Below the pieces are notes generated by a model that did no database searches, had not been told where the DNA came from, and saw nothing but the letters and a program-made list of their open reading frames with translations. From Clostridia bacterium (GTDB lineage Bacteria > Bacillota > Clostridia > Oscillospirales > Acutalibacteraceae), in the NCBI GenBank assembly GCA_017450005.1, contig JAFSYM010000004.1, forward strand, positions 26,279 to 90,278: a stretch of DNA of 64,000 nucleotides, written 5' to 3'. The stretch's first letter is position 1. The number at the start of each line of letters is the position of its first letter. Of this stretch, positions 11,620 through 60,646 are shown in pieces. The position numbers and the translations under genes are program-made.

Positions 11620-11634
11620 ACAAAATAATATACA

Positions 11635-11664
11635 AACGCCGCAGGGAATGCTCCTTGCGGCGTT
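11635..11664. terminator. Bidirectional hairpin between GH95 gene and iorB
   Basis: Inverted repeat AACGCCGCAgGGA / TCCtTGCGGCGTT with a 4-base loop. It lies between convergent genes ending at 11619 (+) and 11683 (-). The plus side is followed by AACGTTTATCT, so the T-tract is weak; the stem is very stable. Confidence 0.75.
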
Positions 11665-11682
11665 AACGTTTATCTATGCAGT

Positions 11683-12261
11683 TCAGTTTTCGTAATTCCA
11701 GCCGAGTTCAAATGCTTTCAGATTCATCTCCAGGAATTTCGGCGGAACGGTTTCGTGCAGCGCGTCAATCCAGACCTGTTTCGCAATTTCAGATTTGGAA
11801 GCAAGCACGCCGATCAGCACAACATTGACTGCCTTTGCGGAACCGGCTTCAACGGCAAGAGACAGCGCATCAATCGCCGTAACGTCCGCGCCGGCCGCTC
11901 TGAGCGCATCCAAAACGCCGTCGGGATATGTATCCGCGCCGGAAATCACGGTCATGGGATCAATCGTCTGTGTATTGACAATGAGCTTGCCGTCCGTCTT
12001 CAGATACGCAAGCCAGCGCGCAGCCTCCAGCTGCTCAAACGACAGCAGCAGATCCGCTTCGCCTTTTTCAATGATGGGCGACGCGACACATTCGCCGTAT
12101 CGCACATACGTCACGACGGAACCACCGCGCTGACTCATGCCGTGCACCTCAGATACCTTGACGTCAAACCCTTCGGAAACCAGCGCTGCACCAAGGATGC
12201 GGCTGGCAAGCAGCGTCCCCTGTCCGCCGACGCCGACAATCATAATACTCTTTGTAGCCAT
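11683..12261 (-). CDS. iorB: Indolepyruvate:ferredoxin oxidoreductase, beta subunit
   Basis: 192 residues from ATG 12261, which has AGGAGGGG six bases upstream; the longer frame has no such site. The N-terminal GVGGQGTLLASRIL and the later EVHGMSQRGGSV are signatures of the gamma-type catalytic domain of 2-oxoacid:ferredoxin oxidoreductases. With IorA it oxidises aryl pyruvates (indolepyruvate, phenylpyruvate, hydroxyphenylpyruvate) to aryl-acetyl-CoA, reducing ferredoxin. The gene begins 13 bp after iorA, in the same operon as the symporter. Confidence 0.93.
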   Translation of the reverse strand: MATKSIMIVGVGGQGTLLASRILGAALVSEGFDVKVSEVHGMSQRGGSVVTYVRYGECVASPIIEKGEADLLLSFEQLEAARWLAYLKTDGKLIVNTQTIDPMTVISGADTYPDGVLDALRAAGADVTAIDALSLAVEAGSAKAVNVVLIGVLASKSEIAKQVWIDALHETVPPKFLEMNLKAFELGWNYEN

Positions 12262-12274
12262 CCGTTTCCCCTCC

Positions 12275-29043: not shown

Positions 29044-31662
29044 TCAACCGAGTTTTGCAAGGCTTTCTTTCAGCATAGCGATCTTGTCTACCAGTCTCGC
29101 CGCGCCATCACGCTGCGTCTGCACGACAGCAGCGGGCGCTTTTTCCACGAACGAAGGATTGTCCAGCTTCTTGCGGATATAGGCAAGGTCATCCTCGGCC
29201 TTGGCCAATTCCTTCTGCAGACGCGCGCGCTCTGCCTCAAAGTCAACGAGGTCGCCCATCGGAATATAAACCTTCGCGTCGTGTGTGACAATATTGACGG
29301 CACCGTCCAGCGCAAAGTCAGCGCCCACTTCCACCTCGGAAGCGCCGGCAAGCTTCATGAAGACAGTCGACACATTCGAGAACAGATCGACAAATGCGGA
29401 TGCGATATACAGCTTTGCTTTCTTTGACGGCGGAACATTCATCTCTGCTCTGCGGTTACGCACAGCGCGGACAATTGCCATGATGCGGTCCATGTCTGCT
29501 TCTTCCGCTGCGAATTCCAGTGCAGGATCATACTCCGGCCACGCAGAAGTCATGATCGTTTCACCGTCGTGCGGGATTGCCTGCCAGATTTCCTCTGTAA
29601 TGAAAGGCATGAACGGATGCAGGAGTTTGAGAATGCCGGTCAGCACATACACGAGCACATCGCCGGCCGTCTTCGCCGCATCGCCGCCCTGCTGCAAACG
29701 GATCTTGGCAAGTTCAATATACCAGTCACAGAACACGTCCCAGATGAAATCGTACAGCTTCTGCACGGCAATGCCCAGCTCAAAACGCTCAAGGTTTTCG
29801 GTCACTTCGCGCGTGAGCGTATTCAGACGGCTGAGAATCCATTTATCCTCCAGAGCAAGATCCTGCGGAATGTGCGCCGGCGCGGTATCCTCACCGAGAT
29901 TCATCAGTACGAAACGCGCGGCATTCCACAGCTTGTTGGCAAAGTTGCGGCTCGCCTCAACCTTTTTCTCGGAGTAACGCATGTCGTTTCCGGGGCTGTT
30001 GCCGGTCGCCAGCGTGAAGCGCAGCGCATCCGCGCCGTAGCGGTCAATGACTTCCAGCGGATCAATGCCGTTTCCCAGAGATTTGGACATCTTTCTGCCC
30101 TGCTCATCGCGCACGATGCCATGAATAAACACAGTGCTGAAAGGCTCTTTACCCGTATGTTCACAGGCGGAGAAGATCATGCGCGCGACCCAGAAGAAGA
30201 TGATGTCATAGCCGGTGACGAGCGTATCGGTAGGATAGTAGTGACGCAGTTCCGGCGTATCGTCCGGCCAGCCGAGCGTGGAAAACGGCCAAAGCGCCGA
30301 AGAGAACCATGTGTCGAGGGTGTCGGGATCCTGACGGAGCGCTGCGCCGCATTTCGGGCAAGCGTCAGGCGTTTCCTTGCTGACAACAAGCTCGCCGCAC
30401 GTATCGCAGTAATACGCCGGAATCCGATGTCCCCACCAAAGCTGGCGCGAAATACACCAGTCTTTGATATTCTCCATCCAGTGATAATATGTCTTGTCAA
30501 AACGTTCCGGCACGAATTTGACCGTACCGTTTTTGACGATGTCGATGGCGGGCTCCGCAAGCGGCTGCATCTTGACAAACCACTGCTTGGAGATACGCGG
30601 TTCCACCGTAGAATGGCAGCGGTAGCACACGCCGACGTTATGACGAAGCGGCTCCACCTTGATGAGGAAACCCTGCTCCTCAAGCTCTTTCACGACCGCC
30701 TTGCGGCACTCCATAGTCGTCATGCCGCAATACTTGCCGGCATTTTCATTCATGTGTGCGTCGTCGGTCATCACGTTGATGATCTCCAGATTCTGGCGCA
30801 GACCAACCTCGAAGTCGTTCGGATCATGCGCAGGCGTCATTTTGACCACGCCTGTTCCGAAGTCCATCTCAACGTAGCTGTCTGCCACAATCGGGATTTC
30901 ACGGCCGACCAAAGGCAGAATAACCGTCTTGCCGACGATATCCTTATACCGTTCATCATCCGGATGCACTGCAACGCCTGTATCGCCGAGCATGGTCTCG
31001 GGACGCGTCGTCGCAAGCTCCACATAGCCGCTGCCGTCAGAGAGCGGATAGCGGATGTGCCAGAAGAAACCGTCCTTCTCTTCATATTCGACTTCTGCGT
31101 CGGAGATCGAGGTCAGGCAATGCGGACACCAGTTGATGATGCGCTCGCCTCGGTAAATCAGGCCTTTGTTATACAGATTGACGAACACTTCACGCACGGC
31201 CTTGTTGCAGCCCTCGTCCATCGTGAAACGCTCTCTGTCCCAGTCGCAGGACGAACCCATCTTCTTGAGCTGCTCGACAATGCGTCCGCCGAATTTGCGT
31301 TTCCATTCCCATGCACGTTGCAGGAAGCCGTCTCTGCCCACATCATCCTTGGACAGGCCTTCGGCTTTCATTGCCTCGACGATCTTGGCCTCGGTCGCAA
31401 TGGACGCATGATCTGTGCCCGGAAGCCAGAGCGTGTCATAGCCTTCCATACGGCGCCAGCGGATCAGAATGTCCTGCAGCGTGTTGTCCAGCGCATGACC
31501 CATGTGCAACTGACCGGTAATATTCGGCGGCGGGATTACGATAGTATACGGCTTCTTGTCCGGTTCACACTTGGCATGGAAGTACTTGCCGTCCAGCCAG
31601 TATTGGTAAATACGATCCTCCACGTTTTTGGGATCATATTGCTTTGCGAGTTCTTTTCTCAT
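29044..31662 (-). CDS. valS: Valyl-tRNA synthetase
   Basis: 872 residues, class I synthetase. The HIGH-type motif PPNITGQLHMGHALDN lies near residues 46-61, the editing domain is in the middle (PETMLGDTGVAVHP), and KMSKSLGNGIDP is near 520. A C-terminal coiled-coil arm (ERARLQKELAKAEDDLAYIR) interacts with tRNA-Val. It follows rpoD by 30 bp, so no T-box leader is present here, unlike many Firmicutes valS genes. It joins the macromolecular-synthesis operon dgt-dnaG-rpoD-valS-folC. Confidence 0.97.
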   Translation of the reverse strand: MRKELAKQYDPKNVEDRIYQYWLDGKYFHAKCEPDKKPYTIVIPPPNITGQLHMGHALDNTLQDILIRWRRMEGYDTLWLPGTDHASIATEAKIVEAMKAEGLSKDDVGRDGFLQRAWEWKRKFGGRIVEQLKKMGSSCDWDRERFTMDEGCNKAVREVFVNLYNKGLIYRGERIINWCPHCLTSISDAEVEYEEKDGFFWHIRYPLSDGSGYVELATTRPETMLGDTGVAVHPDDERYKDIVGKTVILPLVGREIPIVADSYVEMDFGTGVVKMTPAHDPNDFEVGLRQNLEIINVMTDDAHMNENAGKYCGMTTMECRKAVVKELEEQGFLIKVEPLRHNVGVCYRCHSTVEPRISKQWFVKMQPLAEPAIDIVKNGTVKFVPERFDKTYYHWMENIKDWCISRQLWWGHRIPAYYCDTCGELVVSKETPDACPKCGAALRQDPDTLDTWFSSALWPFSTLGWPDDTPELRHYYPTDTLVTGYDIIFFWVARMIFSACEHTGKEPFSTVFIHGIVRDEQGRKMSKSLGNGIDPLEVIDRYGADALRFTLATGNSPGNDMRYSEKKVEASRNFANKLWNAARFVLMNLGEDTAPAHIPQDLALEDKWILSRLNTLTREVTENLERFELGIAVQKLYDFIWDVFCDWYIELAKIRLQQGGDAAKTAGDVLVYVLTGILKLLHPFMPFITEEIWQAIPHDGETIMTSAWPEYDPALEFAAEEADMDRIMAIVRAVRNRRAEMNVPPSKKAKLYIASAFVDLFSNVSTVFMKLAGASEVEVGADFALDGAVNIVTHDAKVYIPMGDLVDFEAERARLQKELAKAEDDLAYIRKKLDNPSFVEKAPAAVVQTQRDGAARLVDKIAMLKESLAKLG

Positions 31663-31692
31663 GATCTTTCTCCTAAATCGTATAGTGCTGTA

Positions 31693-32802
31693 TTATTCCA
31701 AAAAGTCCTTGAGCTGCTTGCTGCGGCTCGGATGACGCAGCTTGCGCAATGCTTTTGCCTCGATCTGGCGGATGCGTTCACGCGTCACGTTGAACTCACG
31801 GCCGACCTCCTCAAGCGTATGAGAATGTCCGTCTTCCAGACCGAAACGCAGCGCAAGCACTTTTGCTTCACGCGGTGTAAGCGTCTTGAGCACCTTGGCG
31901 ATCTGCTCCTTGAGCAGCAGCATGGATGCCGCGTCTGCCGGAGCGGGCGCATCGTCGTCGGGAATGAAGTCGCCCAGATGGCTGTCCTCTTCCTCGCCGA
32001 TGGGAGTCTCGAGCGAAACCGGTTCCTGCGCTACGCGGATGATTTCGCGCACGCGCTCTACAGGCATGTCCAGTCTTTCCGCAATTTCCTCTGCCGTCGG
32101 ATCGCGGCCGTTCTCATGCAGAAGCAGGCTGTTGGTCTTCTTGACCTTGTTGATCGTCTCGACCATGTGTACGGGAATGCGGATCGTGCGCGCCTGGTCG
32201 GCGATCGCGCGCGTGATCGCCTGGCGAATCCACCACGTCGCATACGTCGAGAACTTGAAGCCCTTGGTATAGTCAAATTTATCCACGGCTTTGATCAGAC
32301 CCAAGTTGCCCTCCTGGATCAGATCCAAAAACTGCATGCCTCTGCCCACATAACGTTTGGCAATGCTGACAACGAGGCGAAGGTTGGCCTCGGCAAGGCG
32401 CTTCTTGGCTGATGCTTTGGCTACCGGATCATCACCAGCGATACACATCGCAAGCTCAATCTCTTCCTCTGCAGTCAGCAGCGGAACCTTACCGATCTCC
32501 TTGAGATACACTTTGACCGGATCTTCCATCGAAGCGCTCTTCTCATCAGAGGAAGAGCCGACGTCGCCGGTCTTGGATACGTCGATGTCGAACGTAATGC
32601 TATCGAAGCTCAGCTCATCGTCAAGATTGTCGATGATCTCGATGTGCTGGCTCTCGATCGTCTCGTAGAACTTGTCCAGTTCTTCGATGTCGATAACCAT
32701 TTCGACGATGGCTGCGTCGATTTCCTGTGTGGTCAGTCTGCCGGATGCCTTACCCTTTTCCAAGAGCTGTTTGACTGTCATTTTCTTCTCTGATCCTTCC
32801 AT
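31693..32802 (-). CDS. rpoD: Primary RNA polymerase sigma factor (RpoD/SigA)
   Basis: 369 residues from ATG 32802 (GGAGGG upstream). Region 1.2 reads [22 protein letters not shown] in two parts. Region 2 contains [20 protein letters not shown], which reads the -10 element. Region 4.2 has the [20 protein letters not shown] helix-turn-helix. The acidic N-terminal region 1.1 is short, as in Gram-positives. It matches the many TTGACA/TATAAT promoters in the window. Placed directly after dnaG, the classic order. Confidence 0.97.
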
Positions 32803-40236: not shown

Positions 40237-42483
40237 TTATTCCGCTATAAAATCCTCCGGCTTCCAACTGCGTATCCGAGTACGCATGCCGTCAATATCC
40301 AGAATCCCGTAGGCAAATCCTTTGCGCACGAGCGACTGCGGCACATATTCGTCATATTTTTCAAAGATCGGTACTTCACCGGGATATACAAGCTCCATCG
40401 GGTCGATCGGCTTTTCAATTTCCTCACGCAGCACCGCAAAGAAAGTCTGCGGATCTACCTTCATTTTAAACTGAATGAAATACGGGCGTGATGAATCGAG
40501 TGCAGATAAACCGAGCTGCTCGCCGCAGCGACGCTTCAAAAACCTTTCCATGGCAAAAAAGGCATACGTGCCGAGCCATGGGAACAGGCACCACATATTT
40601 CCGCCAAGACAGACAAGAGGACGTGTCGCCGCGCCGGAATTGCGCGCGGTCATACGAGCATGCTCGAGTCTTGCCACGGCATTGCGCATCAGGTACGGAT
40701 AGCTTTTCTGCTCCAGAAGCACACTGCGCATTCGCTCGAGCACTTTCGTGTGTATATCGCCCGGACACTCGCCAAAGTATGCCGGCACTTTGCCCTTGAC
40801 CTGCTCGCAATACAGCAGACGCCGTTTGTGATCGATCTCCTCCACAATCCATACATGCCCCGCAAGCGCAATTTTTTCTCCGACGGGCGGCGGCATGACG
40901 ATCGTCCCCAGCTCCTGCGATCCGCACCGGACCGTATATTCTTCGCTTTCCTGAAACACGGCAAAAAACTTGAAAGAATTGATGACCCTCTCGCCGGCAA
41001 GTCCGACGATCAGGCCGCCCTCGTCCGTGCGCTGAATTTGCTCCGTCTCAATCAAATGACGAAGCAGTTCGCGGTAGTCGTCTTTTGAAATGCGGTGAAA
41101 AAAACTGAGCGTCAACACACGTTCCGCCAACTGCGCCGGCGTCAATTCCCCGCAGGACGCCAATGTGCTCATAGTCTGATGATACAAAAGGCTGAACGGC
41201 AGTCGATCCAGCTTGGGCGGTTCGACCCAGCGTTCCTCCAGATAAAGCTGCACAAGCGCAATGCCCTGCAGCAGTTTCCACGGTACAGTCGTCGGCAGCA
41301 TCGCGCGGACTTCCGGCATATCCTCGCGCATCACAAACCACATTTCCGGCGGCTGATCGCGTCTGCCCGTGCGTCCGAGACGCTGCAGGAAAGAAGAAAC
41401 CATAAAAGGCGCGTCTATCTGAAAAGCCCGTTCCAGTCGGCCGATGTCGATGCCGAGCTCCAGCGTAGCCGTTGTAACGGTCGTTTGCAGCAGTGCGTCG
41501 TCCTTCATCGCCTCTTCCGCTGTTTCACGGTAGGACGCGGACAGGTTGCCGTGATGAATAAGAAAACGATCCGGCTCATGACGCGCCTCGCAGTACTGGC
41601 GCAGTGTTGTGGTGACCGCTTCGCACTCTTCGCGGGAATTGACGAAGACCAGACACTTTTTGCCGCGTGTATGCTCGAAGATATAGCCGATGCCCGGATC
41701 GGCATTTTGCGGTGCGTCATACGTTGCGGCGTCAAGCGCAGGCTGCGCGTCAACTTCTTTGCCGTCAGACGCCTGCAGTCCCTGCACAAAGAAGTGCTCC
41801 ATGGAAATGCGCCAGCGCGTGCCTTTCTGTTCGATCTGCGGAATAACGACGCCGCGTCCCGTCCCGCTCGAAAGAAACTCTCCCGTGGTCTTCGGATCGC
41901 CGATCGTTGCGGAGAGTCCGATTCTGCGCGGATTGACGCCGGCAAGCCGGCATAGACGTTCTATCAGACAGAGCGTCTGACCGCCGCGGTCACCGCGCAT
42001 GAGCGAATGCACCTCGTCGATCACAATAAAACGCAGATCACAGAACAGGCGCGAAATCTGCGCATGCTTGCGCAGCAGCATCGCCTCCAACGATTCCGGC
42101 GTGATTTGCAGAATACCGGACGGCCGTCTCAGCATGCGTGCTTTATGCGACTGCGACACGTCGCCGTGCCAGTGCCAGACGGGAATATCCGCCTCTTCAC
42201 AAAGGCTGTTCAATCTCTGAAATTGATCGTTGATCAGCGCCTTCAGCGGTCCGATGTAGATTGCACCAACCGAAGACGGCTTATCTTCCGAGAAGAGTGT
42301 CAGGATCGGAAAGAACGCTGCCTCTGTTTTGCCGGACGCCGTTGACGCCGTCAGCAAAACATTGTCCTGCGTGTTGAATATCGCCTCTCCGGCGGCAACC
42401 TGGATCGCGCGCAGAGACTCCCAGCCGTTCTGATAGATGAAATCCTGTACAAACGGCGCGTAGCGGTCAAATACGTTGCTCAT
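40237..42483 (-). CDS. Superfamily-2 DEAD/DEAH helicase of the TerB_N/BrxD-like operon
   Basis: 748 residues. Motif I TASGKT (48-53), motif Ia YIGPLKALINDQ, DEVH-type motif II (VIDEVHSL, near 153-160), motif III LSATIGDP, motif V TLELGIDIG and motif VI QRLGRTGRRDQ. The second half (from about 400) looks like winged-helix and Lhr/BrxHI-like accessory domains. The protein is probably a translocase on DNA. Its ATG overlaps the stop of the ATPase gene (42480-42483). Helicases of this kind accompany BrxD-like ATPases in BREX type 2 and in the TerB_N triad. Last gene of a three-gene operon; stop at 40237. Confidence 0.88.
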   Translation of the reverse strand: MSNVFDRYAPFVQDFIYQNGWESLRAIQVAAGEAIFNTQDNVLLTASTASGKTEAAFFPILTLFSEDKPSSVGAIYIGPLKALINDQFQRLNSLCEEADIPVWHWHGDVSQSHKARMLRRPSGILQITPESLEAMLLRKHAQISRLFCDLRFIVIDEVHSLMRGDRGGQTLCLIERLCRLAGVNPRRIGLSATIGDPKTTGEFLSSGTGRGVVIPQIEQKGTRWRISMEHFFVQGLQASDGKEVDAQPALDAATYDAPQNADPGIGYIFEHTRGKKCLVFVNSREECEAVTTTLRQYCEARHEPDRFLIHHGNLSASYRETAEEAMKDDALLQTTVTTATLELGIDIGRLERAFQIDAPFMVSSFLQRLGRTGRRDQPPEMWFVMREDMPEVRAMLPTTVPWKLLQGIALVQLYLEERWVEPPKLDRLPFSLLYHQTMSTLASCGELTPAQLAERVLTLSFFHRISKDDYRELLRHLIETEQIQRTDEGGLIVGLAGERVINSFKFFAVFQESEEYTVRCGSQELGTIVMPPPVGEKIALAGHVWIVEEIDHKRRLLYCEQVKGKVPAYFGECPGDIHTKVLERMRSVLLEQKSYPYLMRNAVARLEHARMTARNSGAATRPLVCLGGNMWCLFPWLGTYAFFAMERFLKRRCGEQLGLSALDSSRPYFIQFKMKVDPQTFFAVLREEIEKPIDPMELVYPGEVPIFEKYDEYVPQSLVRKGFAYGILDIDGMRTRIRSWKPEDFIAE

Positions 42484-43790
42484 ACCTCAAACTCCGCAAA
42501 CGATGCATCCGACGGTTCCGGTGTACTTTCAGCAAAGGTAAACGACTCCGAGCCGAGCAGGTCGCGTACATGGATTTCCGGATGCTGGTGAATAATGTTC
42601 AGAAGCTCGATGAAATCACGGATGATTTCACGCGGCGTAATATGCGAATCCGCACCGACACGCCCGAACTCAATGCGTATAAAATCGGCCAGATCGGATT
42701 CTGTCAGCGTCGGTGTATAGTCAAACAACTGCGCGTGTACATCCGTCAGCTTTTCAGTCAGGACAAGCATCTCCTCACTCGTCAGCGGCTCCAGGCGAAT
42801 CACCGGCGCGAGCATATCCTGCACACCTTCGCGCGCAAAACGCCCTTCTGCCAGACGCGAACGAAGCGCCTCATAGCTGTATACACCGCGGCGCGTATCC
42901 TCGATGCACTGCGGCGTACCGCTCATGATGATACCGAGATACGACGCTTTCCCCTGCAGCGTATCATTATACATGGTCAGAATCTTCTCGTAATTGTACT
43001 GCCGTGTGATGCTGTTCGGCACTTTGTAGATATTGACCAGCTCATCAATCAGAATCAACAGTCCGCTGTACCCTGCCTTTTTCAGAAAGACGGCAAAGAT
43101 TTTGATATACTCATACCAGTCGTCGTCCGAAATAATAATGTTGACGCCCAGATCAGCTTTGGCTTCTGTTTTGGTCGTGTATTCGCCGCGGAACCATTTG
43201 ACGACTTTGGACTTGCTTTCGTCGTCACCGTTCAGATACGCGCGATAATAGATAGTCAGGAGTTTGGCAAAGTCGAAACCGTGCACCATTTCATTGAGCG
43301 AGCTGATGACAGTAAAGATTTGACGTTCAACCTGATTGGCAAAGCCCGCATCGTTCGTAGACAAGCCGCTCTGTGCGGCGGTTTCTGCCTGAACCGTGCT
43401 GATCCAGCGATCAAGAATCAGCGTGAGCGCGCCTCCCTCCGGACGCGTCTTGGTCGACATATTGCGGATCAGCTCTTTATAGGTTGCAAGCCCCTGTCCT
43501 TTTGTTCCCTGCAGCCGGCGCTCGGGCGACAAATCCGCATCCACCACCACAAAGCCGCGATCCATGCAGTAGCTGCGAATCGTTTGCAGCAGAAAGCTCT
43601 TGCCGCTGCCGTACCGCCCGACAATGAAGCGAAACGACGCACCGCCGTCGGCAATGATGTCCACATCGTGCAGCAGTGCTGCAATCTCTGTCTCGCGACC
43701 CACTGTGATGTACGGCAGGCCTATACGAGGCACAACGCCGCCTTTTAATGAATTGATCACAACGGATGCAATCCGTTTCGGTATTTTCAT
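42480..43790 (-). CDS. BrxD-like ATP-binding protein (BrxC/BrxD P-loop family, DUF2791)
   Basis: 436 residues. The N-terminus (VVPRIGLPYITVGRETEI) and the P-loop VGRYGSGKSF (57-66) match the BREX-system ATPase family PF10923. VVDADLSPERRLQ follows, and the Walker B region reads LLILIDELVNIYK near 244-256. A C-terminal stretch DSHITPREIIRDFIELLNI is also typical. In BREX these ATPases pair with a helicase and a DNA modification set; no methylase or PglZ gene is present here. ATGA overlaps at both ends (with 43787 and 42483) indicate one translationally coupled complex. Confidence 0.9.
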   Translation of the reverse strand: MKIPKRIASVVINSLKGGVVPRIGLPYITVGRETEIAALLHDVDIIADGGASFRFIVGRYGSGKSFLLQTIRSYCMDRGFVVVDADLSPERRLQGTKGQGLATYKELIRNMSTKTRPEGGALTLILDRWISTVQAETAAQSGLSTNDAGFANQVERQIFTVISSLNEMVHGFDFAKLLTIYYRAYLNGDDESKSKVVKWFRGEYTTKTEAKADLGVNIIISDDDWYEYIKIFAVFLKKAGYSGLLILIDELVNIYKVPNSITRQYNYEKILTMYNDTLQGKASYLGIIMSGTPQCIEDTRRGVYSYEALRSRLAEGRFAREGVQDMLAPVIRLEPLTSEEMLVLTEKLTDVHAQLFDYTPTLTESDLADFIRIEFGRVGADSHITPREIIRDFIELLNIIHQHPEIHVRDLLGSESFTFAESTPEPSDASFAEFEV

Positions 43791-45256
43791 GACAATAATC
43801 CTTTCAGTTCATCCGCATAGTCCTCAAGCACAGTCAGGGTGTCGCCTTCGTACACAAGGACGGTATCGGCAAATGTATCATAGCATTTTTCGTTGATAGA
43901 TTCCGCAACGACAGACAGAAGTCTCCCCGTTCCCTGCAAGACAGACTTTGCATCCTCCCCGTGAAGCAGAGCGCGCAGAACAGAAGCCTCGACTTCATCG
44001 AGCTGCAGTGCATTCTCCGGTGCAGATTCTTCGTCGAGCAGGGGCAATGCCTCTTCGCTGTCTTCCGTCTCTTCTTCCACAATCAGGCGCTCGCGCGTGA
44101 TCTCCGCAGCAGAACGGATCTCGTCAAGTCTTGACAGATCTATACTGACCTTGCGGATTGCCTGTTCCCGCTTCACCTTTCGGCATGCTTCAACACTTTC
44201 GGTAATAATTTTTTGAAGATACTTCGGCGCAGAGTCCGCTTTTAATGAATACGGATAATCCAACGTATCACGCAAATGGGCATCAACTGCACGCGCGATT
44301 ACGCCAAGATCGGCATTCTTCCCGCGTTTGCCCCAGATACGCGAGCACGTCCATTTTCCGTCTTTGCATGTAAAGGAGGATAGCTTGCTGATCGAATATG
44401 TACGATCCGGCTGTTTGGTACGCGGATAAAAAATCGCAGAATAAAACATGGAGTACGGCGTGGAGAAGCAACGGCCGAAAAAAGATTCCGCAAGGGAATA
44501 CTTACGATTCTTCTCATAGTACCGGCAAAGACTGCGGTATGTCTCGCACAGCACATCGCGGTAAATGTCCGCATGCTCACGATAGAACCGTGAACGTAGT
44601 ACGGCATAAGAAGACAACGCACACAGCGCGTCAAATAAACGATCGTTTTCAACCTGCGAATAATGAATCAGCACATCCAGCGAACAATCAAACGCATATT
44701 CCTCCGACTGTTCCAGGAGCGCGGGATCCAGATCATAATAGACAACATAATCACGAAGCCACAACTGAACGTATCGATTAATCTGCGCGTCGATTTCACG
44801 GTATCTTTCATAGAACGCAGACAGCTTGCGGTAAGCATCGAGTGCATCCGAAGCGCCGATACCGTTCAGCAGTTCATAAACGTAAACATAGACGAATGAA
44901 AGCTGTGTCTTTTCGATTTCGCCGCGCCTTACACGTGCGCGCCATGTAAAATAACCGCGAAGCTGGTTGTCGCTCATGGATTCATAGGTTGGATAATAGC
45001 GGATAAAAGTCCCGGAGTACGGGCAGTCATCCTCGAAATCCTCCATGAACTTACCCTGCTTATAAAAGATTTCGGCGGAGGTCATGCTGCGCGTACCGCC
45101 CTGAAACGCAATCCGACGCATTTGACGGCAGCGCTCCGGCAAGTAGTTTTTCATTTGTGCTGCCGTTCGCAGGATCGGTTCATCCCGGTAAACTTTGCCG
45201 GACAAACCGGCCTGCTGTATGACCTGCGAAATCAAGTCATCTTTCTTGCTCAACAC
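43787..45256 (-). CDS. TerB_N/TerB_C-domain protein
   Basis: About 489 residues from GTG 45256 (AAGGG 8-9 bases upstream); GTG 45265 lies too close to that site. The N-terminal half matches TerB_N: YPTYESMSDNQLRGYFTWR (positions about 87-105) followed by SFVYVYVYELLNGIG. The C-terminal half has a TerB_C look: KREQAIRKVSIDLSRLDEIR, then an acidic stretch and a winged-helix-like end. No catalytic residues are recognised. TerB_N proteins were linked to tellurite-resistance-type stress systems and to DNA-processing gene sets; here the partner genes are a BrxD-like ATPase and a helicase. Likely a scaffold or sensor of that complex. Confidence 0.85.
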   Translation of the reverse strand: MLSKKDDLISQVIQQAGLSGKVYRDEPILRTAAQMKNYLPERCRQMRRIAFQGGTRSMTSAEIFYKQGKFMEDFEDDCPYSGTFIRYYPTYESMSDNQLRGYFTWRARVRRGEIEKTQLSFVYVYVYELLNGIGASDALDAYRKLSAFYERYREIDAQINRYVQLWLRDYVVYYDLDPALLEQSEEYAFDCSLDVLIHYSQVENDRLFDALCALSSYAVLRSRFYREHADIYRDVLCETYRSLCRYYEKNRKYSLAESFFGRCFSTPYSMFYSAIFYPRTKQPDRTYSISKLSSFTCKDGKWTCSRIWGKRGKNADLGVIARAVDAHLRDTLDYPYSLKADSAPKYLQKIITESVEACRKVKREQAIRKVSIDLSRLDEIRSAAEITRERLIVEEETEDSEEALPLLDEESAPENALQLDEVEASVLRALLHGEDAKSVLQGTGRLLSVVAESINEKCYDTFADTVLVYEGDTLTVLEDYADELKGLLS

Positions 45257-45296
45257 TGTCGCCACCCTTCAAACGTGATAAATGAATGTAAAGGAT

Positions 45297-45372: not shown

Positions 45373-45404
45373 AAATGCTGCAGCCGAAAACGACTGCAGC
45401 ATTT
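45373..45404 (-). terminator. Rho-independent terminator after the AAA+/M41 gene
   Basis: AAATGCTGCAG / CTGCAGCATTT with a 10-base loop, followed on the minus strand by TTTTTGTCCC (the stem's own T run extends it). It separates the 1136-residue protease gene from the TerB_N operon. Confidence 0.85.
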
Positions 45405-45436: not shown

Positions 45437-48400
45437 TCAATCAGCCTGCGGTGCAAGCTCTGATGCGAAGAAGCCCTCAAGCGTCGTCTTATCCAGGCTC
45501 TTCTCCTTGATGAGCAATTCGGTCAGGCGATCCAGCGTATCGCGATGCTCGGTAAGCAGCGATGTTGCGCGCTCAAACTGCTGCTGCATGATTGTTTCGC
45601 CGTCCTTGTAGCTGCTCTTGGAGAACATCTTGCTGCCCATGGCATAATCATCCAGCGCACGGCGAATCATCGAGCGAGCATGTTCGATATCCGAGCTGGC
45701 GCCCGTGTTATTGCCGGCTACCTGGCCGAAAACAAGCATTTCGGAAGCTCTGCCGGCCAAAGAACAGCATACCTTACTCAGCAGTTCTTCGTATGTAAAA
45801 GTGCCTTTGGTCTCATCCTGATCATACTCCATGAATCCGCCGTAATGACCGCGCGAAACAATCGTGACAAATGCGGGAATCTTGTTCAGAATGGCGTTGA
45901 TCAAAGCATGACCTGCTTCATGATACGCAGTCTGACGCAGATCTTTTTCGTTCATTTTCTTCACATCGCCGAAACGATAGGCATCCAGAGCGTCCATCAG
46001 ATCCTTCGCCTGCGGCGTCTTATCAGACGTTGCACGCAGGAATATGTCAACGATGATCTCCAGATCTGCGTTGCTCATCCCGCTGCTGCGGCTCGCCATA
46101 TTACGGACAATCTGTGCATGATCCGCGCCGAAGTCCACGCCATGCTTTTTCAGATTGCGCAGCAGGAAGGTTTCACGCTCGTCCGTGTCCGGCAGATCCA
46201 CAAAGATCCTCCTGTCGAATCTGCGTACAAATGCAGGATCCAGCACACGATTGGAACCGTCGTTCCCGATGCCGTAGTTGGTTGCCGCAACAACAAACAC
46301 AGGCCGACGCGGATCTGACACAAAGCCGTCCATTTCAGACAAGAACGTCGTGAGCATATCCTCATTGTATCGATTCAGATCCGAGCCTGTACGCATGCGG
46401 CCAATCGCATCGACTTCATCGATAAATATTACAGAGGGCGCATATTTGCGGGCTTTGCTGAATATCCCGCGAATGTTAGCCTCGCCTTCGCCCACATATT
46501 TGTTGAAAAATGCTGTGGCCGTTGTGGGGAAGAATGCCGCATGTGTTTCGTTTGCCATAGCTCTCGCAAGCATCGTTTTTCCCGTACCGGGAGGGCCGTA
46601 AAGCAAAACGCCTTTCGGAATACGTTTGCCGCCGAGAACAAGGTCGCGCGGATTCTTGACGAAGTTGCAGAAGTCCTGAAGCGCCTCTTTCGCGCTCTTG
46701 CATCCGATCACATCGTCAAATGTCACAACAGTCTGTTCGTTGTGAGCTGCCATGGCCGACTGATCTTCGGACGAAATGGCAAGGCCGAGAGACAGACGAT
46801 CCACGGTAATCTGAACCGTATTGTCATCCAGGAGGAACTGCCAGCAGTTATAATTCAATACCTTGCGGCTTCTTGACAGGGAGAACGTGTTGTTGTTGAT
46901 GCGCACACTGTAGCATAGCTGTTTGATATCTGCCTCAAATTGATCCATCGACTCCTCATTGACAGCTACGACACCTCTGGCGCCCTTAATCAGCAGAGAG
47001 CTGAAAGCATCCTTCCCGCGCAGACGCGTATCAAGAAGATAAACCGGAACCTCCGGATAATACTTGCGCAGATACTCAAACAGTTCCACGCCGTCAGACC
47101 GGATATCTTCAATATCGTACGGCATATTCTCCATATCATGCAGACCGCATGCAGGATCCAGCAGAACATAGTCCACAACGCCTCTTGCGCGCTTCTTGCA
47201 GGCGGACATGTCACTGAAAAAGCTGAATTCGGACCGATCCGCATCGAAGTGCGGCATCAACTGATCCTTGAGGAATGCGTCCGCAAACGTCAGAACCTGC
47301 ATTTTATCCTGCGGATTCAAGAAACTCCGTGCATCCTCGTCCGTTGTATCTGTGTTCAGGCAGATACGGATTTTTTTAAGCTGTTTGACGTCATCGCCGT
47401 ACAAAACACTCGTCTGAAGAATAGCATCCTGTAATTCTTTAACCAGGAAGTTTTTGGCTAAACCGCGCAGAGTTCTGGCGTCCTGCGTTCCACCGGCATG
47501 ATAAAGGATGAGTGCAGAGATTTCTGTCGGATTATATTCAATTTCAACGTTGAACGCTTCTTTAAACCGCTGAACCTGCACCTTCATCTCATCACAAATA
47601 ATCTGCATGAGTGCATAGGGCTCCAGATGGTTGAAAAGTACAACATGACCGTTTGCAAAACGCGTTGTGATACACTCGGGAAAATATGTCTGTCTGGTAT
47701 GCGGATTGATCTCTGTGCGCAGCGCCTCCAGAATTGTACTCTTCGACACGCCGGACAAATCGCAGACAGTCGTATCTTCGTACAGAGTCTTACCCGCATT
47801 GGACGTAAAAATGATAATCGTTTCTTTAAAAGAAACTTCTTTCTTGATCTGCATATCCATCATGGTTCCGCGCTCGAGGATACGCAGGAACTGATGAATC
47901 GTGTTTAAATCCGCCTTCTCAATTTCGTCGCAGATAATGACGCCTTTCGGGTTTTCAAGCGCATATTTCGTCAGAATTCTGTCATCCGACTGATCGCCGT
48001 TGAGCTTGCGATAGGACCAGTACTCCGCAAACTGACTCATATCAACGACCAGCGGCTCGCCGCGGTCGAGCGCTTTGGCACAATTCTCGGCAAGGAATGT
48101 TTTGCCGACGCCGGACGGACCGACAAAAAGGAAAGTCGCAATAGGACCCCGGCGATCCTCTGCCTTGCCGGAGAAACCGTCGCTTTCAAAGATGGCCTGC
48201 ACGACCTCTTCGACAGCATGTCTTTGCCCGCGAACCTTTTCAAGCAAAGCTTCACGGAACGTAATAATGTGCTTCGCTTCGTCAAGAATCGACCTGGTGA
48301 CCGGCTCTTCCGGCTTCTTTTTCTTAGATCCGGCTGCAGCAGCTGCTACATCTGCTTTGCCGGAATAGTTCGGACCGGCGGACGCATGCGCGGGCGCAGA

Positions 48401-48847
48401 CTCGTCTGTACCCGAGGCGGCCGACGGAGAGGAACCGGCAGGTCGCGGGCTGCCTTGTGCAGGCGCGTTTGATCCATCTTTTTCTCCGGTCAGTGCAGCG
48501 TAAGCCGAAAGAATCCATCTGTTTTGCGATTCCGTATTGTTCTGATCATCCTTCAGTTTTTTGATTTCCTCGCTTGTAATCAGAGAAACGGAAACATAGA
48601 AGGAATCAGAGCTGTAAGTCATCTCCTTGATCCAGGTCGATGCGATTCTCTGTGCAACATCTGCATCATCTTCATAAGGGAAGAAGAAAAAGCAGTGCAT
48701 CCCGCTTTTTTTATCCATCTTATAATCCGTGAATTCACGTTCGGCCTTTTTCTCAAAGTCCTCCCAAAATGAAGCACCGTTTTTTTGCCTGTAAGTAAAA
48801 AGAACATCAATGGACCGGAACATAATGGTCAACTTGTAATACTTCAT
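45437..48847 (-). CDS. Clp-type AAA+ / receiver-like / soluble FtsH-type AAA+-M41 protease fusion
   Basis: 1136 residues; FtsH is usually about 600-700. Order: N-terminal alpha/beta region (1-110), Ala/Pro/Ser-rich linker (about 122-185), first AAA+ module of Clp type with Walker A GPSGVGKT (243-250) and Walker B VIICDEIEKA (303-312), helical region (400-500), receiver-like domain (about 540-650) with VLLDPACG and a conserved-position Asp564, then FtsH-type AAA+ with GPPGTGKT (751-758), VIFIDEVDA (806-814) and an RRFDRR arginine-finger region (875-880). The M41 protease has zinc site HEAGH (976-980) and third ligand GASSDIEHA with Asp1053. All active-site residues are intact. No transmembrane segment is present, unlike classical FtsH, so the enzyme is cytosolic. 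Own promoter and terminator. Confidence 0.9.
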   Translation of the reverse strand: MKYYKLTIMFRSIDVLFTYRQKNGASFWEDFEKKAEREFTDYKMDKKSGMHCFFFFPYEDDADVAQRIASTWIKEMTYSSDSFYVSVSLITSEEIKKLKDDQNNTESQNRWILSAYAALTGEKDGSNAPAQGSPRPAGSSPSAASGTDESAPAHASAGPNYSGKADVAAAAAGSKKKKPEEPVTRSILDEAKHIITFREALLEKVRGQRHAVEEVVQAIFESDGFSGKAEDRRGPIATFLFVGPSGVGKTFLAENCAKALDRGEPLVVDMSQFAEYWSYRKLNGDQSDDRILTKYALENPKGVIICDEIEKADLNTIHQFLRILERGTMMDMQIKKEVSFKETIIIFTSNAGKTLYEDTTVCDLSGVSKSTILEALRTEINPHTRQTYFPECITTRFANGHVVLFNHLEPYALMQIICDEMKVQVQRFKEAFNVEIEYNPTEISALILYHAGGTQDARTLRGLAKNFLVKELQDAILQTSVLYGDDVKQLKKIRICLNTDTTDEDARSFLNPQDKMQVLTFADAFLKDQLMPHFDADRSEFSFFSDMSACKKRARGVVDYVLLDPACGLHDMENMPYDIEDIRSDGVELFEYLRKYYPEVPVYLLDTRLRGKDAFSSLLIKGARGVVAVNEESMDQFEADIKQLCYSVRINNNTFSLSRSRKVLNYNCWQFLLDDNTVQITVDRLSLGLAISSEDQSAMAAHNEQTVVTFDDVIGCKSAKEALQDFCNFVKNPRDLVLGGKRIPKGVLLYGPPGTGKTMLARAMANETHAAFFPTTATAFFNKYVGEGEANIRGIFSKARKYAPSVIFIDEVDAIGRMRTGSDLNRYNEDMLTTFLSEMDGFVSDPRRPVFVVAATNYGIGNDGSNRVLDPAFVRRFDRRIFVDLPDTDERETFLLRNLKKHGVDFGADHAQIVRNMASRSSGMSNADLEIIVDIFLRATSDKTPQAKDLMDALDAYRFGDVKKMNEKDLRQTAYHEAGHALINAILNKIPAFVTIVSRGHYGGFMEYDQDETKGTFTYEELLSKVCCSLAGRASEMLVFGQVAGNNTGASSDIEHARSMIRRALDDYAMGSKMFSKSSYKDGETIMQQQFERATSLLTEHRDTLDRLTELLIKEKSLDKTTLEGFFASELAPQAD

Positions 48848-48893: not shown

Positions 48894-48950
48894 TATAGAA
48901 TCTAAGATTTCTATAGAATTAAATATAGCATAATGCATATTTTTTGTCAA
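48894..48950 (-). promoter_or_regulatory. Promoter and operator-like repeats of the AAA+/M41 gene
   Basis: Minus-strand TTGACA (48945-48950), 17 bases, TATATT (48922-48927). From the expected start site onward lies TATAGAA-N8-TTCTATA (48894-48915), and TATAGAAT is also repeated directly at 48894-48901 and 48912-48919. A GAGGTGAGGT ribosome site precedes the ATG. Confidence 0.72.
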
Positions 48951-49002: not shown

Positions 49003-50010
49003 TCATTTTCCATATACAGCGGAAAAAAGGATAGATTTCATGCCTCTTCCGTCTGTATGAAAACGGTAGTTCTGACACATGTCATATCCGGGCAGCGTAT
49101 TGCCTTCGACGAGAACAGGACCATGCGCCGTAACCGCTACATCCCAGCCGACGTAGCGCACATGCGGCTCGACCAAAGCAGCCTTTGCGCACAGTTCAAC
49201 CGCCTGCGCATAGAACGGGATCTCAAATCCTAAAAACGCAAAAACGGTTTTCGGGTGCTCCGAATAATACTTGCCGGTGCGATCACAAAACATCGGATGG
49301 ATAATCTTTCCATTTGCATCCGGCATGGTATACATCCCGCCCGAAGAAACATTGTCCGTTGGTGAATCTCCATCCCCCACACGCAGCAGTGTGTATACAA
49401 CGTGCGCCTGTCCGTCATCATCCAGCACGGTTACAATCCGCAGCGTATTCACGCATGCGTCACAGAGAAGCTGCATTTTCTCATGCTGCGCAATCGGTTC
49501 TTCAATGAGAGTTAAGCCGTCCCGCAGCAGAACCCGATACACATTGTCCACATTTGGTTCGTTTGTCAGGTCGACTTTCCTGATTCCCTTGCCGCCATAC
49601 GAATCCGGCGTTTTGGCAAACACGACCGGATGCCGCTGTATAAAACGACGAAATGCCTCCGCCCCGTCCGAAAGCTGCATATATTCCCTGCCGATGAATG
49701 CACGGAACATGCGGTTAAATTCAATCTTATTCAGAAAAATTGCACAATACGAAGGATCATTCATCTGTCTGGCAAACCGGATATTGTCTCCCATCGTCAT
49801 AAAGGTCTTTCGATTCTCTCCGTGATTCTGCGCAAAGCCGAACGTCAGATAATCCAAATGGCCGAATCCCAGGCGCATACAGCCGAGCATATCCGCCAGT
49901 GTCACAAGTTCCGGCTGTCCGAACCTGTCACGTACTATCCCGATATTTCTGATCATACGTTTCATGCTGCCGAAATCTGCGCGACGCAAGAACAACGCAT
50001 AGTTTCTCAT
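49003..50010 (-). CDS. ATP-grasp protein, sugar-transfer-associated type
   Basis: 335 residues from ATG 50010 with GAGGGGG upstream. A longer frame that runs to 50181 passes through the tRNA gene and is not real. The sequence recalls the ATP-grasp family found beside glycan-assembly genes (ATPgrasp_ST): FAKTPDSYGGKGIRKVDL (about 131-148), LIEEPIAQHEKM near 180, RIVTVLDDDG near 205, VGWDVAVTAHGPVLVEGN (about 295-312) with the metal-binding Glu/Asn. It would join a carboxylate to an amine or similar group at the cost of ATP; substrate unknown. It stands directly after the tRNA terminator. Confidence 0.85.
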   Translation of the reverse strand: MRNYALFLRRADFGSMKRMIRNIGIVRDRFGQPELVTLADMLGCMRLGFGHLDYLTFGFAQNHGENRKTFMTMGDNIRFARQMNDPSYCAIFLNKIEFNRMFRAFIGREYMQLSDGAEAFRRFIQRHPVVFAKTPDSYGGKGIRKVDLTNEPNVDNVYRVLLRDGLTLIEEPIAQHEKMQLLCDACVNTLRIVTVLDDDGQAHVVYTLLRVGDGDSPTDNVSSGGMYTMPDANGKIIHPMFCDRTGKYYSEHPKTVFAFLGFEIPFYAQAVELCAKAALVEPHVRYVGWDVAVTAHGPVLVEGNTLPGYDMCQNYRFHTDGRGMKSILFSAVYGK

Positions 50011-50066
50011 ATAAATCCCCCTCGCAGAATAGTATCTGCAGGCAGAGAAAAAATAATAAAGAAAAA

Positions 50067-50094
50067 AGCTTGAAATCCCGAAGGATCTCAAGCT
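50067..50094 (-). terminator. Terminator of the tRNA-Val gene
   Basis: AGCTTGA-a-ATCC / GGAT-c-TCAAGCT with loop CGAA (a stable GNRA-like tetraloop on the opposite strand), followed on the minus strand by TTTTTTCTTTATTATTTTTTC. Confidence 0.88.
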
Positions 50095-50095
50095 A

Positions 50096-50172
50096 TGGTG
50101 GACACGTTCGGGCTCGAACCGAAGACCTCTCGCGTGTGAGGCGAGCGCTCTGACCAGCTGAGCTACGCGTCC
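50096..50172 (-). tRNA. tRNA-Val (anticodon CAC)
   Basis: 77 nt including an encoded CCA. Acceptor stem GGACGCG/CGTGTCC (one G-U pair), D-arm GCTC...GAGC, anticodon stem CTCGC/GCGAG with loop CTCACAC, variable AGGTC, T-arm TTCGG-TTCGAGC-CCGAA. Anticodon positions 34-36 read CAC, decoding GUG. The discriminator base is A. Promoter at 50183-50210, strong terminator directly after. Confidence 0.96.
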
Positions 50173-50182
50173 AACGAACAAT

Positions 50183-58845: not shown

Positions 58846-59475
58846 TTATTTCGTGCCGAATATTCTGTCTCCGGCATCGCCGAGACCGGGAACAATATAC
58901 CCATGATCATTGAGCTTTTCGTCCAAAGCTGCGCAGAAAATGTCAACGTCCGGATGCGCGCTGCGCAGTGCGTTCAATCCTTCGGGCGCGGCAATAATGC
59001 CGATGAACTTGATAGACTTCGGACCGCGCTGCTTGATCTGCGTAATCGCGTCGATAGCAGATCCGCCCGTGGCAAGCATGGGATCGAGCACAATAACTTC
59101 GCGCTCATGAATGTCCGACGGCAGCTTGCAGTAGTACTCAACAGGCTTCAACGTCTTCGGATCGCGATAGAGACCGATATGACCGACACGCGCGGAGGGA
59201 ACGAGCTGCAGCACGCCGTCCACCATGCCGAGACCGGCACGCAGAATCGGCACAAACGCCATCTTTTTGCCCGCAATAGCGCTGCAGGTAGCTGTCGTAA
59301 TCGGTGTTTCAACTTCGACCGGTTCCAGTTCCAGATCGCGCGTCGCTTCATAACAAAGAAGCATGGCGATTTCGCTGATCAGGCGACGGAACTCACTCGA
59401 CGATGTGTTCTTGTCGCGCAGGATATGCAGCTTGTGCTGAATCAGCGGATGGTTGGTGATGGTTACGTTTGACAT
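58846..59475 (-). CDS. upp: Uracil phosphoribosyltransferase
   Basis: 209 residues, standard length. [13 protein letters not shown] (74-86), the PRPP loop [14 protein letters not shown] near 131-144, and the C-terminal uracil-binding [17 protein letters not shown] are all present. It salvages uracil to UMP. Adjacent to rpiB by 17 bp, the common order in Firmicutes. Confidence 0.97.
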
Positions 59476-59492
59476 ATTGATTCCCTCCGAAA

Positions 59493-59939
59493 TTATAATA
59501 TACCGTTTTCAATATCCTCAAGCATCTTGACGCGGCGGCGATGCCGCTCTTCGTCAAGCGCAGGCGTGTTTAAAAAGATCTGCGTCAGCTCGATCGCCTT
59601 TTCCTCGGAAATGACACGTGCGCCCATACAGAGAATGTTAGCATTATTGTGCAGGCGCGTCATCTCCGTGGAGTACGCGTCCGAACACACCGCAGCGCGA
59701 ATTCCCTTGACCTTATTGGCGGCGATCGAAATGCCGATGCCGGTGCCGCAGCAGAGAATGCCGCACTCGCACGTTCCGTCGGCTACGGCATGCGCAGCTT
59801 TGGCCGCATAGATCGGATAATCCACAGACGCCTCGCTGTCCGTGCCGAAATCCATATACGCACGGCCGATCGAATCCAGATACTTTTTCAGTGCTTCTTT
59901 GAGCGGGTATCCCGCGTGGTCGCAACCCAATGCAATCAT
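59493..59939 (-). CDS. rpiB: Ribose-5-phosphate isomerase B
   Basis: 148 residues from ATG 59939, overlapping the tsaB stop (ATGA). [12 protein letters not shown] (4-15), the active-site [18 protein letters not shown] with Cys near 66-68, and [12 protein letters not shown] define RpiB/LacAB. It interconverts ribose-5-phosphate and ribulose-5-phosphate (possibly allose-6-phosphate). A longer upstream frame lies in tsaB. Confidence 0.95.
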
Positions 59940-60646
59940 GATCTCTGAGCCTCCAATTTTTGTTTTCTTTCGCGCTCCGCCTGAGACGGACGCAGGTATG
60001 ATACAGATAAAGCAGCGGCAGAAACCGGCTGCAGTGCGGCAAGGTTTTCCCACACGGCAAGCGCGACGCTTGACGCGCGCTGATACCGCACGGCTTGCGG
60101 CGCAATACGCACACGCGGGAGCGTATCTTTGAACGCATCATAGCAAAGCTGTGCGCCGTCGCCGACAAGTATGATTTCTTTGTCGTGTGACTTTAATTGT
60201 GCACAAAGATCGTCGAGCGAAACGGCGTTATCCTCAGTCAGTCGCCGGATCTGCCCATCGTTTTCTTCAAACAGCGCCGTATAAACCTGCCGGCACCGCG
60301 CATCCATCGCGCAGCAGATCAAGGCGTCTGAACCGCGCAGATTGTGCGCCATAGACAAAAGTGTCGAAATGCCGATGCACGGTTTATCAAGCGGCTGCGC
60401 CAAACCTTTAACGGTGGAAACGCCGATGCGCACGCCCGTGAACGAACCGGGTCCGTTTGCGGCCGCGAATAGATCCACGTCACGGATCGACACGTCCGCA
60501 TACTGCAAAAGCGAACGGATCATCGGCATGAGCGTTGCGCTGTGCGTCAATCCGACGTTCAGAAAGAACTCGCCCAAAAGCTTTCCGTCCTCAACCAAAG
60601 CGGCGCTCGCGGCAACCGCAGAGGATTCAACGGCCAGTATCTTCAT
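59936..60646 (-). CDS. tsaB: tRNA threonylcarbamoyladenosine synthesis protein TsaB
   Basis: 236 residues. ASKHA-type fold, N-terminus ILAVESSAVAASAALV (3-18), then SATLMPMIRSLL and NGPGSFTGVRIGVSTVKGLA (about 66-85), the TsaB signature. It works with TsaD and TsaE in making t6A37 on ANN-decoding tRNAs. Its ATG lies 20 bases inside the end of tsaE, so the two are translationally coupled. No tsaD is present in the window. Confidence 0.95.
   Translation of the reverse strand: MKILAVESSAVAASAALVEDGKLLGEFFLNVGLTHSATLMPMIRSLLQYADVSIRDVDLFAAANGPGSFTGVRIGVSTVKGLAQPLDKPCIGISTLLSMAHNLRGSDALICCAMDARCRQVYTALFEENDGQIRRLTEDNAVSLDDLCAQLKSHDKEIILVGDGAQLCYDAFKDTLPRVRIAPQAVRYQRASSVALAVWENLAALQPVSAAALSVSYLRPSQAERERKQKLEAQRS

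Follow-up and report, generated by a model that had tools for sequence, protein, structure and literature searches.

A candidate cytosolic protease of some gut Clostridia joining Clp-type and FtsH/Cdc48-type AAA+ modules, a predicted receiver domain and an M41 protease site

ATP-driven proteases usually depend on separate adaptors and docking partners for their control. In NtrC1-type AAA+ activators receiver domains control ring assembly or coupling, and the NtrC1/NtrX class may, by analogy, be taken as the nearest parallel to a receiver that governs an AAA+ ring. The closest precedent for a receiver in proteolysis is RssB with ClpXP (PMC4428439). Tandem AAA+ modules have been described in the FtsH ternary conflict systems, where a double FtsH-type AAA+ protein, its first module catalytically inactive, is encoded beside MoxR and vWA genes (PMC7159879). 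Here we describe a gene for a protein of 1136 amino acids (aa) at 45437..48847 on the minus strand of a 64,000-nucleotide stretch of the Clostridia bacterium contig JAFSYM010000004.1 (positions 26,279 to 90,278; hereafter the window). With a probability of about 0.55 we take this single chain, which has no transmembrane segment and in which a Clp-type AAA+ module, a predicted receiver, an FtsH/Cdc48-type AAA+ module and an M41 protease domain follow one another, to be a cytosolic ATP-driven protease fed by a YbjN protein and set by its receiver. The domains and motifs, the missing membrane segment, the conservation of the family and the linkage to YbjN genes are observed, and are set out below together with what speaks for other readings.

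The open reading frame has an ATG start, ahead of which a ribosome site looks plausible by eye, and is recognised by Pfam, by NCBIfam and in a 30-row family alignment (A5). Running along the minus strand from the N-terminus, the N-domain (residues 1-115; 48503..48847) is predicted in a full-length model as beta-alpha-beta-beta-alpha-beta, ferredoxin-like by inspection, and is followed by an Ala/Pro/Ser-rich linker (residues 121-186; 48290..48487) that is predicted to be disordered, with a predicted local distance difference test score (pLDDT) below 50 for residues 123-181. AAA1 (residues 187-497; 47357..48289) is of the Clp second-ATPase (D2) type by Pfam, NCBIfam, sequence and structure comparison and alignment. 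The receiver-fold domain (residues 514-660; 46868..47308), assigned from predicted structure, structure-search lists and alignment, leads into a long beta-hairpin (residues 661-690; 46778..46867) that extends towards AAA2 in the predicted models. AAA2 (residues 703-945; 46013..46741) is an FtsH/Cdc48-type AAA+ module by Pfam, NCBIfam, structure comparison and alignment, and the M41 metalloprotease domain (residues 960-1136; 45440..45970), assigned by Pfam, alignment and structure comparison, holds HEAGH at 976-980 and the third ligand D1053. The coordinates given by the initial annotation, which had been made from the letters of the window, were accurate to within a few residues.

Pfam places AAA_2 with its best stretch at 235-391 (2.7e-25), AAA at 747-884 (2.5e-44) and Peptidase_M41 at 965-1074 (1e-24; all E-values are for the whole protein). 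NCBIfam places FtsH_fam at 697-1074 and the second-ATPase models of ClpA, ClpB and ClpV at about 182-488. These searches confirm the two AAA+ modules of different classes that had been read from the sequence. In structure alignments FtsH and AFG3L2 cover 358-420 residues of the C-terminal half, the second rings of ClpB and ClpC cover about 300 residues on the AAA1 side, and FtsH-like and other AAA+ proteins are among the matches in a viral structure library. The full-length model (mean pLDDT 79.5, predicted template modelling score 0.64) has the domains in the order given above; being a single-chain model, its relative domain placement carries no evidence on a hexamer. A hydropathy scan bears out the absence of a membrane segment: the peak 19-residue Kyte-Doolittle window is 1.34 and begins at residue 979, inside HEAGH. 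Across all 30 aligned rows the peak does not exceed 1.53, below the level of a membrane helix, and no N-terminal anchor of the FtsH type was found.

The family was assembled by protein searches, genome surveys and a pattern scan of GTDB genomes; the surveys were confined to the window's own phylum, and their tallies include the window's own genome as a match. A survey for the same order of domains, as the initial annotation had proposed, found the layout in further Clostridia, and 29 relatives could be aligned with the window protein. Where a database source name is given, the relatives are called 'AAA family ATPase'. Eighteen loci came from the GTDB pattern scan, under the titles Clostridia bacterium, Oscillospiraceae bacterium or Ruminococcaceae bacterium; 17 are metagenome-assembled genomes, and seven name omasum, cecum or rectum samples. 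Ruminococcaceae bacterium YRB3002 (L042) is the only named record that does not carry the metagenome label. The protein is carried by some gut Clostridia. The sequence observation made on this single window is correct and more general than could be seen there. At E 1e-100 the whole protein matched 4 of 60 genomes of relatives and none of 10 congeners; profile A2 matched 2 of 391 genomes of the class and 12 of 394 genomes of the order, and with profile A6 the figures were 11 of 300 for the family and 3 of 398 for the phylum. One of the 11 is doubtful, a 237-aa frame in genome G032 (E 2.5e-6) that is probably an unrelated receiver. Because these tallies are low, we regard the gene as accessory and patchy. 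The 200-aa receiver region had no match in 72,556 plasmid and 50,697 phage records, and a whole-protein search of viral contigs gave no confirmed match; carriage as mobile cargo is rejected on this absence from the records and contigs searched.

The alignment divides into subfamily A (21 rows, the window included) and subfamily B (9 rows). Mean identity between the two is 40% in AAA1, 45% in AAA2, 34% in M41, 21% in the receiver and 10% in the N-region. Subfamily B probably carries a Clp-N-like N-terminus, judging from profile and domain matches: the best solved-structure matches of its N-terminal profile are ClpA N-domains (E 0.002) and Clp_N stands in the precomputed Pfam list of protein P0085, while Pfam itself finds Clp_N in only one of eight members (E 0.11). 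Two loci lie outside the 30 rows: L035, broken into two frames, is still counted in the YbjN tally below, and L039, cut at a contig end, is not. Six pairs of loci share contigs (L007/L034, L046/L037, L047/L036, L048/L039, L076/L029 and L077/L038), P0006 is the protein of L041, and the 107 proteins of the protein search partly overlap the aligned loci (P0007 is that of L044). P0002-P0005 carry no gene context. P0054, P0064 and P0069, considered as forms without AAA1, start inside AAA1, so they are probably fragments.

AAA1 is nearest by sequence to the second rings of ClpC, ClpE and ClpB, and, as expected of a Clp D2-type AAA_2 module, retains Walker A, Walker B, the Arg finger and the sensor-2 Arg. 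AAA2 groups with the classical AAA motors (FtsH, Cdc48, proteasome) with no clear winner among them; its Walker A, Walker B and Arg fingers are intact, and the window's pore loop has Tyr784. The C-terminal part matches FtsH M41, the AAA+ motor being followed directly by the protease domain as in FtsH. H976, E977, G979, H980 and D1053 are invariant in the 30 rows, which upholds the reading of HEAGH with Asp1053 as a zinc site and puts Asp1053 at the third zinc-ligand position. In all 106 proteins both rings keep Walker A and B, AAA1 keeps its Arg finger and sensor 2 and AAA2 its Arg pair, and HExxH is retained together with the third Asp of the zinc site. A second FtsH-like protein, a 646-aa frame with 39% identity over residues 703-1091, is encoded elsewhere in the same genome.

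Between the motors, the initial annotation had seen receiver-like order, and this is borne out. The segment is modelled with confidence (pLDDT 87.4) as a (beta-alpha)5 receiver topology, and its structure-search lists are filled by receivers, with the NtrC1/NtrX class at the top and RssB also present. Sequence search alone left the matter unsettled (Response_reg matched 5 of the 30 members with a best E of 0.0036, and two other families were equally frequent); it is the predicted fold that settles the receiver identity. D564, the acceptor-type Asp at the end of beta-3, is kept in 30/30 rows and 105/106 proteins, D581 in 30/30 and 106/106, and E580 in 30/30 and 96/106. The description of the domain as phosphorylatable is not supported: while Asp564 is there, no row has the receiver Lys after beta-5 (position 629; two have Lys one residue earlier), and only one has Ser/Thr at the end of beta-4 (position 606), the other 29 having mostly Asp, Glu or Gln and 21 of the 30 having Ser/Thr one residue later, all in sequence register. 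The domain probably acts by binding a partner, metal or ligand, and not by ordinary Asp phosphorylation. The layout and the lack of a membrane anchor thus stand from the earlier interpretation and phosphorylation is doubtful; the YbjN partner, the two subfamilies and a deletion in the AAA1 pore loop had been missed.

The partner gene encodes a YbjN protein of about 135-155 aa and lies directly upstream on the same strand, about 30-200 nucleotides off, in 15 of the 18 subfamily A loci with upstream sequence. Profile A8 was built from ten of these 15 linked copies, and five more were found with it. All five subfamily A copies that were scanned exceed the cut-off of PF10722 (YbjN; 22 bits), three at 37.7-54.1 bits and two more at 39.3 and 43.2. 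The window's genome has an unlinked YbjN gene (39.9 bits) on contig C33, whose tetranucleotide correlation with the window is 0.955 vs 0.18-0.60 for four other genomes. Among the 60 relatives the subfamily A YbjN profile matches four genomes: the window's own and G038, both with the protease, and two that have none. In subfamily B, YbjN-like genes occur near 6 of 16 loci, outside which we leave the distant L065 and the cut-off L066: tandem pairs adjoin the protease in L051, L052, L054, L079 and L080 (divergently in L080), and in L081 the gene is about 5 kb away. L051, L052 and L054 match by construction, since the subfamily B profile was built from these first three. PF10722 matches 8 of 12 scanned subfamily B YbjN-like proteins at E up to 1 (best 7.4e-8); of the three tandem-type proteins scanned first, two score about 18 bits, below the cut-off, and the third has no match. 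A8 aligns with the tandem YbjN-like profile at E 0.002 but with a probability of only 14%, and against solved structures it gave nothing useful. Published work portrays YbjN proteins as chaperone-like, of type III, and as acting through protein contacts (PMC5398634, PMC3575483); they are also grouped with peptide-binding TY-chaperones (PMC9503650). No link of YbjN to an AAA+ protease was found in the literature searched.

These features suggest the following course of events. The YbjN partner, often encoded next door and unlinked in this genome, would bring clients to the N-domain, and a hexameric AAA1 would form the entrance ring, which it may open, hold or order. Since the receiver lies between the motors, borne by a long helix and by the beta-hairpin towards AAA2, it would control ring assembly or coupling, its tier passing an input to the AAA2 ring through helix and hairpin. 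AAA2 would then thread the client chain, with Tyr784 in the pore loop, and M41 would cut what has been threaded. The recurrent adjacent YbjN suggests a direct role for YbjN/TY-chaperones, namely client feeding to a protease. We put forward tentatively a more specific version, in which a gate-like Clp ring and a pulling FtsH ring hold the receiver tier clamped between them; the receiver would read a signal other than phosphate and permit the degradation of YbjN-delivered clients. YbjN proteins would then be dedicated protease adaptors and the family a new class of AAA+ proteases with a built-in signal gate, and swaps of N-domain and neighbours (YbjN, tandem YbjN, an RCK-like membrane protein, a CARF nuclease) would rewire one core to different inputs.

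Several points weigh against a YbjN-fed, receiver-set protease. The reading rests on sequence, gene context and a single-chain model. The window itself, L038 and L041 are the subfamily A exceptions with no adjacent YbjN, and at 10 of the 16 subfamily B loci no YbjN was found by profile. ClpC uses its GYVG-type segment for substrate grip; the window's AAA1 lacks six residues spanning it by comparison with ClpC, and the loop is shortened in 20 of 21 subfamily A rows (the exception, L029, has a longer, Tyr-bearing loop like that of subfamily B, where the loop differs and an aromatic is kept: Tyr in seven rows, Trp and Phe in one each). AAA1 of most subfamily A members may hence bind and hydrolyse ATP without pulling. 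AAA2 has its pore aromatic in only 8 of 21 subfamily A rows, the other 13 having Leu, which makes pulling by AAA2, too, less than certain; in subfamily B the residue is Tyr in seven of nine rows, Ile in one and deleted in one. Whole-sequence scores put Cdc48 above FtsH, though they sum two stretches. In a distant 961-aa relative from another class of the same phylum, which lacks the N-domain (L065:6572-9457, minus strand), the Walker motifs are, by eye, altered in both ATPases (AAA1 Walker A is kept) with HEAGH intact, as if the proteolytic blade had been retained and the motors lost. With Lys and Ser/Thr lost, finally, the receiver may have no more than a structural role.

That last point is the core of a doubtful alternative in which the receiver is purely a structural spacer or assembly collar with no switching. 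It would account for the missing Lys and Ser/Thr, for an acidic residue at 523 after beta-1 in 20 of 21 subfamily A but one of nine subfamily B rows, and for a receiver identity between subfamilies of 21% vs 34-45% for motors and protease; a mere spacer has no need, however, of the acidic cluster of D564, E580 and D581, conserved in every row. The protein could also be a remodelling machine, its ATPases disassembling or refolding YbjN-delivered complexes and its M41 domain being rarely used or self-trimming. AAA1 is most like Clp-type chaperone ATPases, and YbjN proteins are described as working without enzymatic action (PMC5398634), yet HExxH and the third Asp in 106/106 proteins are what is expected of a used protease, and in L065 the protease site is intact although the ATPase motifs are altered; we consider remodelling rather unlikely. 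A fusion of clp-like and ftsH-like genes by assembly or annotation has nothing beyond the unusual layout to recommend it. It is already refuted, as would be the assembly join that the initial annotation allowed for, because the 29 relatives, from independent records, share the order of domains and the two halves diverge together (AAA1 against AAA2 plus M41, r = 0.94 overall and 0.84 within subfamily A).

We regard it as improbable that the protein is an effector protease of anti-phage defence or abortive infection that acts together with the neighbouring Shango operon or with CARF nucleases. In favour of this reading are the patchy distribution, the Card1-like CARF-PDDEXK nuclease genes that precede two subfamily B relatives (L043:1951-3195 and L050:11764-13029), and the Sng genes beginning 171 nucleotides downstream in the window, all on the minus strand: SngA (43787..45265, PADLOC E 1.2e-77), SngB (42480..43790, 9.9e-195) and SngC (40237..42483, 5e-279), which constitute the Shango anti-phage system (PMC10250203). 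A terminator-like hairpin with a T-run (45373..45404, minus strand; 14 pairs, longest of 4 in the region) nevertheless separates protease from Shango, the gene clusters shared between loci hold none of the window's Sng genes, and the receiver has no match in the phage and plasmid records searched. PADLOC at E 1e-15 found at most 4 genes among 107 neighbours of related loci (two CARF nucleases, one RTasDUF1848 and one mad3); the scan took 107 of 110 listed neighbours, three short ones being left out, and seven later loci fell outside it. Membership of the protease in the Shango operon is unlikely, given the hairpin and the lack of recurrent Sng genes at related loci, and a role as a general defence-island gene is weakened by the sparse PADLOC matches. 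As the hairpin is suggestive and the neighbours of related loci are not rich in such matches, we treat the link to Shango as chance neighbourhood.

Upstream of the protease gene there is a sigma-70-like promoter, TTGACA-17-TATATT (48922..48950, minus strand; 11/12 matches, best of 7 in the region). Neither promoter matches nor hairpins are clearly more numerous in the region than in shuffled sequence, so both calls are suggestive only. Further upstream, the listed start of an ATP-grasp frame (49003-50181, minus strand) overlaps a tRNA-Val gene (50096-50172), and the true start is therefore probably further in. Very long frames lie opposite other long frames in the window (29569-32412, plus strand, 947 aa), in L033 (2297-5650, minus, 1117 aa) and in L041 (8516-11845, minus, 1109 aa); those of L033 and L041 are antisense to the protease gene itself. 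Three same-order genes, perhaps a housekeeping cluster, are common to the window (58846-60646, minus) and the subfamily B locus L052 (16143-17896, minus), about 10 kb and 4 kb from the protease, respectively. Large proteins encoded beside or near the protease in four loci (L041:11906-14917; L044:4981-7317; L045:5219-7198 and 10634-12430; L049:12136-14484) form one sequence cluster and show, by eye, N-terminal hydrophobic stretches. They also carry, by eye, an apparent RyR-like LEHRRWN-type motif. The labels RyR and RCK are based on this motif and on TrkA_N matches that are weak or modest; a literature search on them gave nothing. One L045 protein is matched by TrkA_N, and no NCBIfam model matched the L041, L044 and L049 proteins.

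In keeping with the initial annotation, no described enzyme with this layout was found in the literature searched for the architecture or the partner. With the FtsH ternary conflict systems (PMC7159879) the window protein shares tandem AAA+ modules of which the second is FtsH-type, but its first module is Clp-type with intact motifs and is followed by a receiver, AAA2 and M41; a Pfam scan of seven window neighbours held no MoxR or vWA genes. The linked small protein matches PF10722, the YbjN family, as a counterpart of the YbjN/TY-chaperones (AmyR, DR1245, TY-Chap1), and differs from them in its link to an AAA+ protease, which the literature searched does not record. Receivers of AAA+ regulators (NtrC1, NtrX, DctD) and of RssB find a counterpart here that is placed between the two AAA+ modules of a protease and is without Lys and Ser/Thr. 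AAA1 (residues 182-490) is like the Hsp100/Clp second ring (ClpC, ClpB D2) with its nucleotide site intact, and the subfamily B N-terminus also resembles a Clp N-domain; in contrast to Hsp100/Clp proteins, the chain has only one Clp-type ring, which is fused to its own zinc protease where those proteins dock on ClpP, and a shortened GYVG-type loop in nearly all subfamily A members. This pore-loop loss would offer a natural test of a non-pulling AAA+ ring in a stacked machine. The C-terminal half is that of FtsH and the i-AAA and m-AAA proteases, in which M41 with HExxH and a third Asp is joined to an AAA+ motor, whereas the membrane segment is missing, a Clp-type motor and a receiver are added in front, and the score against the FtsH equivalog of NCBIfam is 303.1 bits with a cut-off of 600. 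The chain unites an unfoldase of one class, a receiver and a complete metalloprotease of another, so that a signal would be tied to degradation within a single polypeptide. We see it as a new architecture among the AAA+ proteases, and not as a new kind of enzyme.

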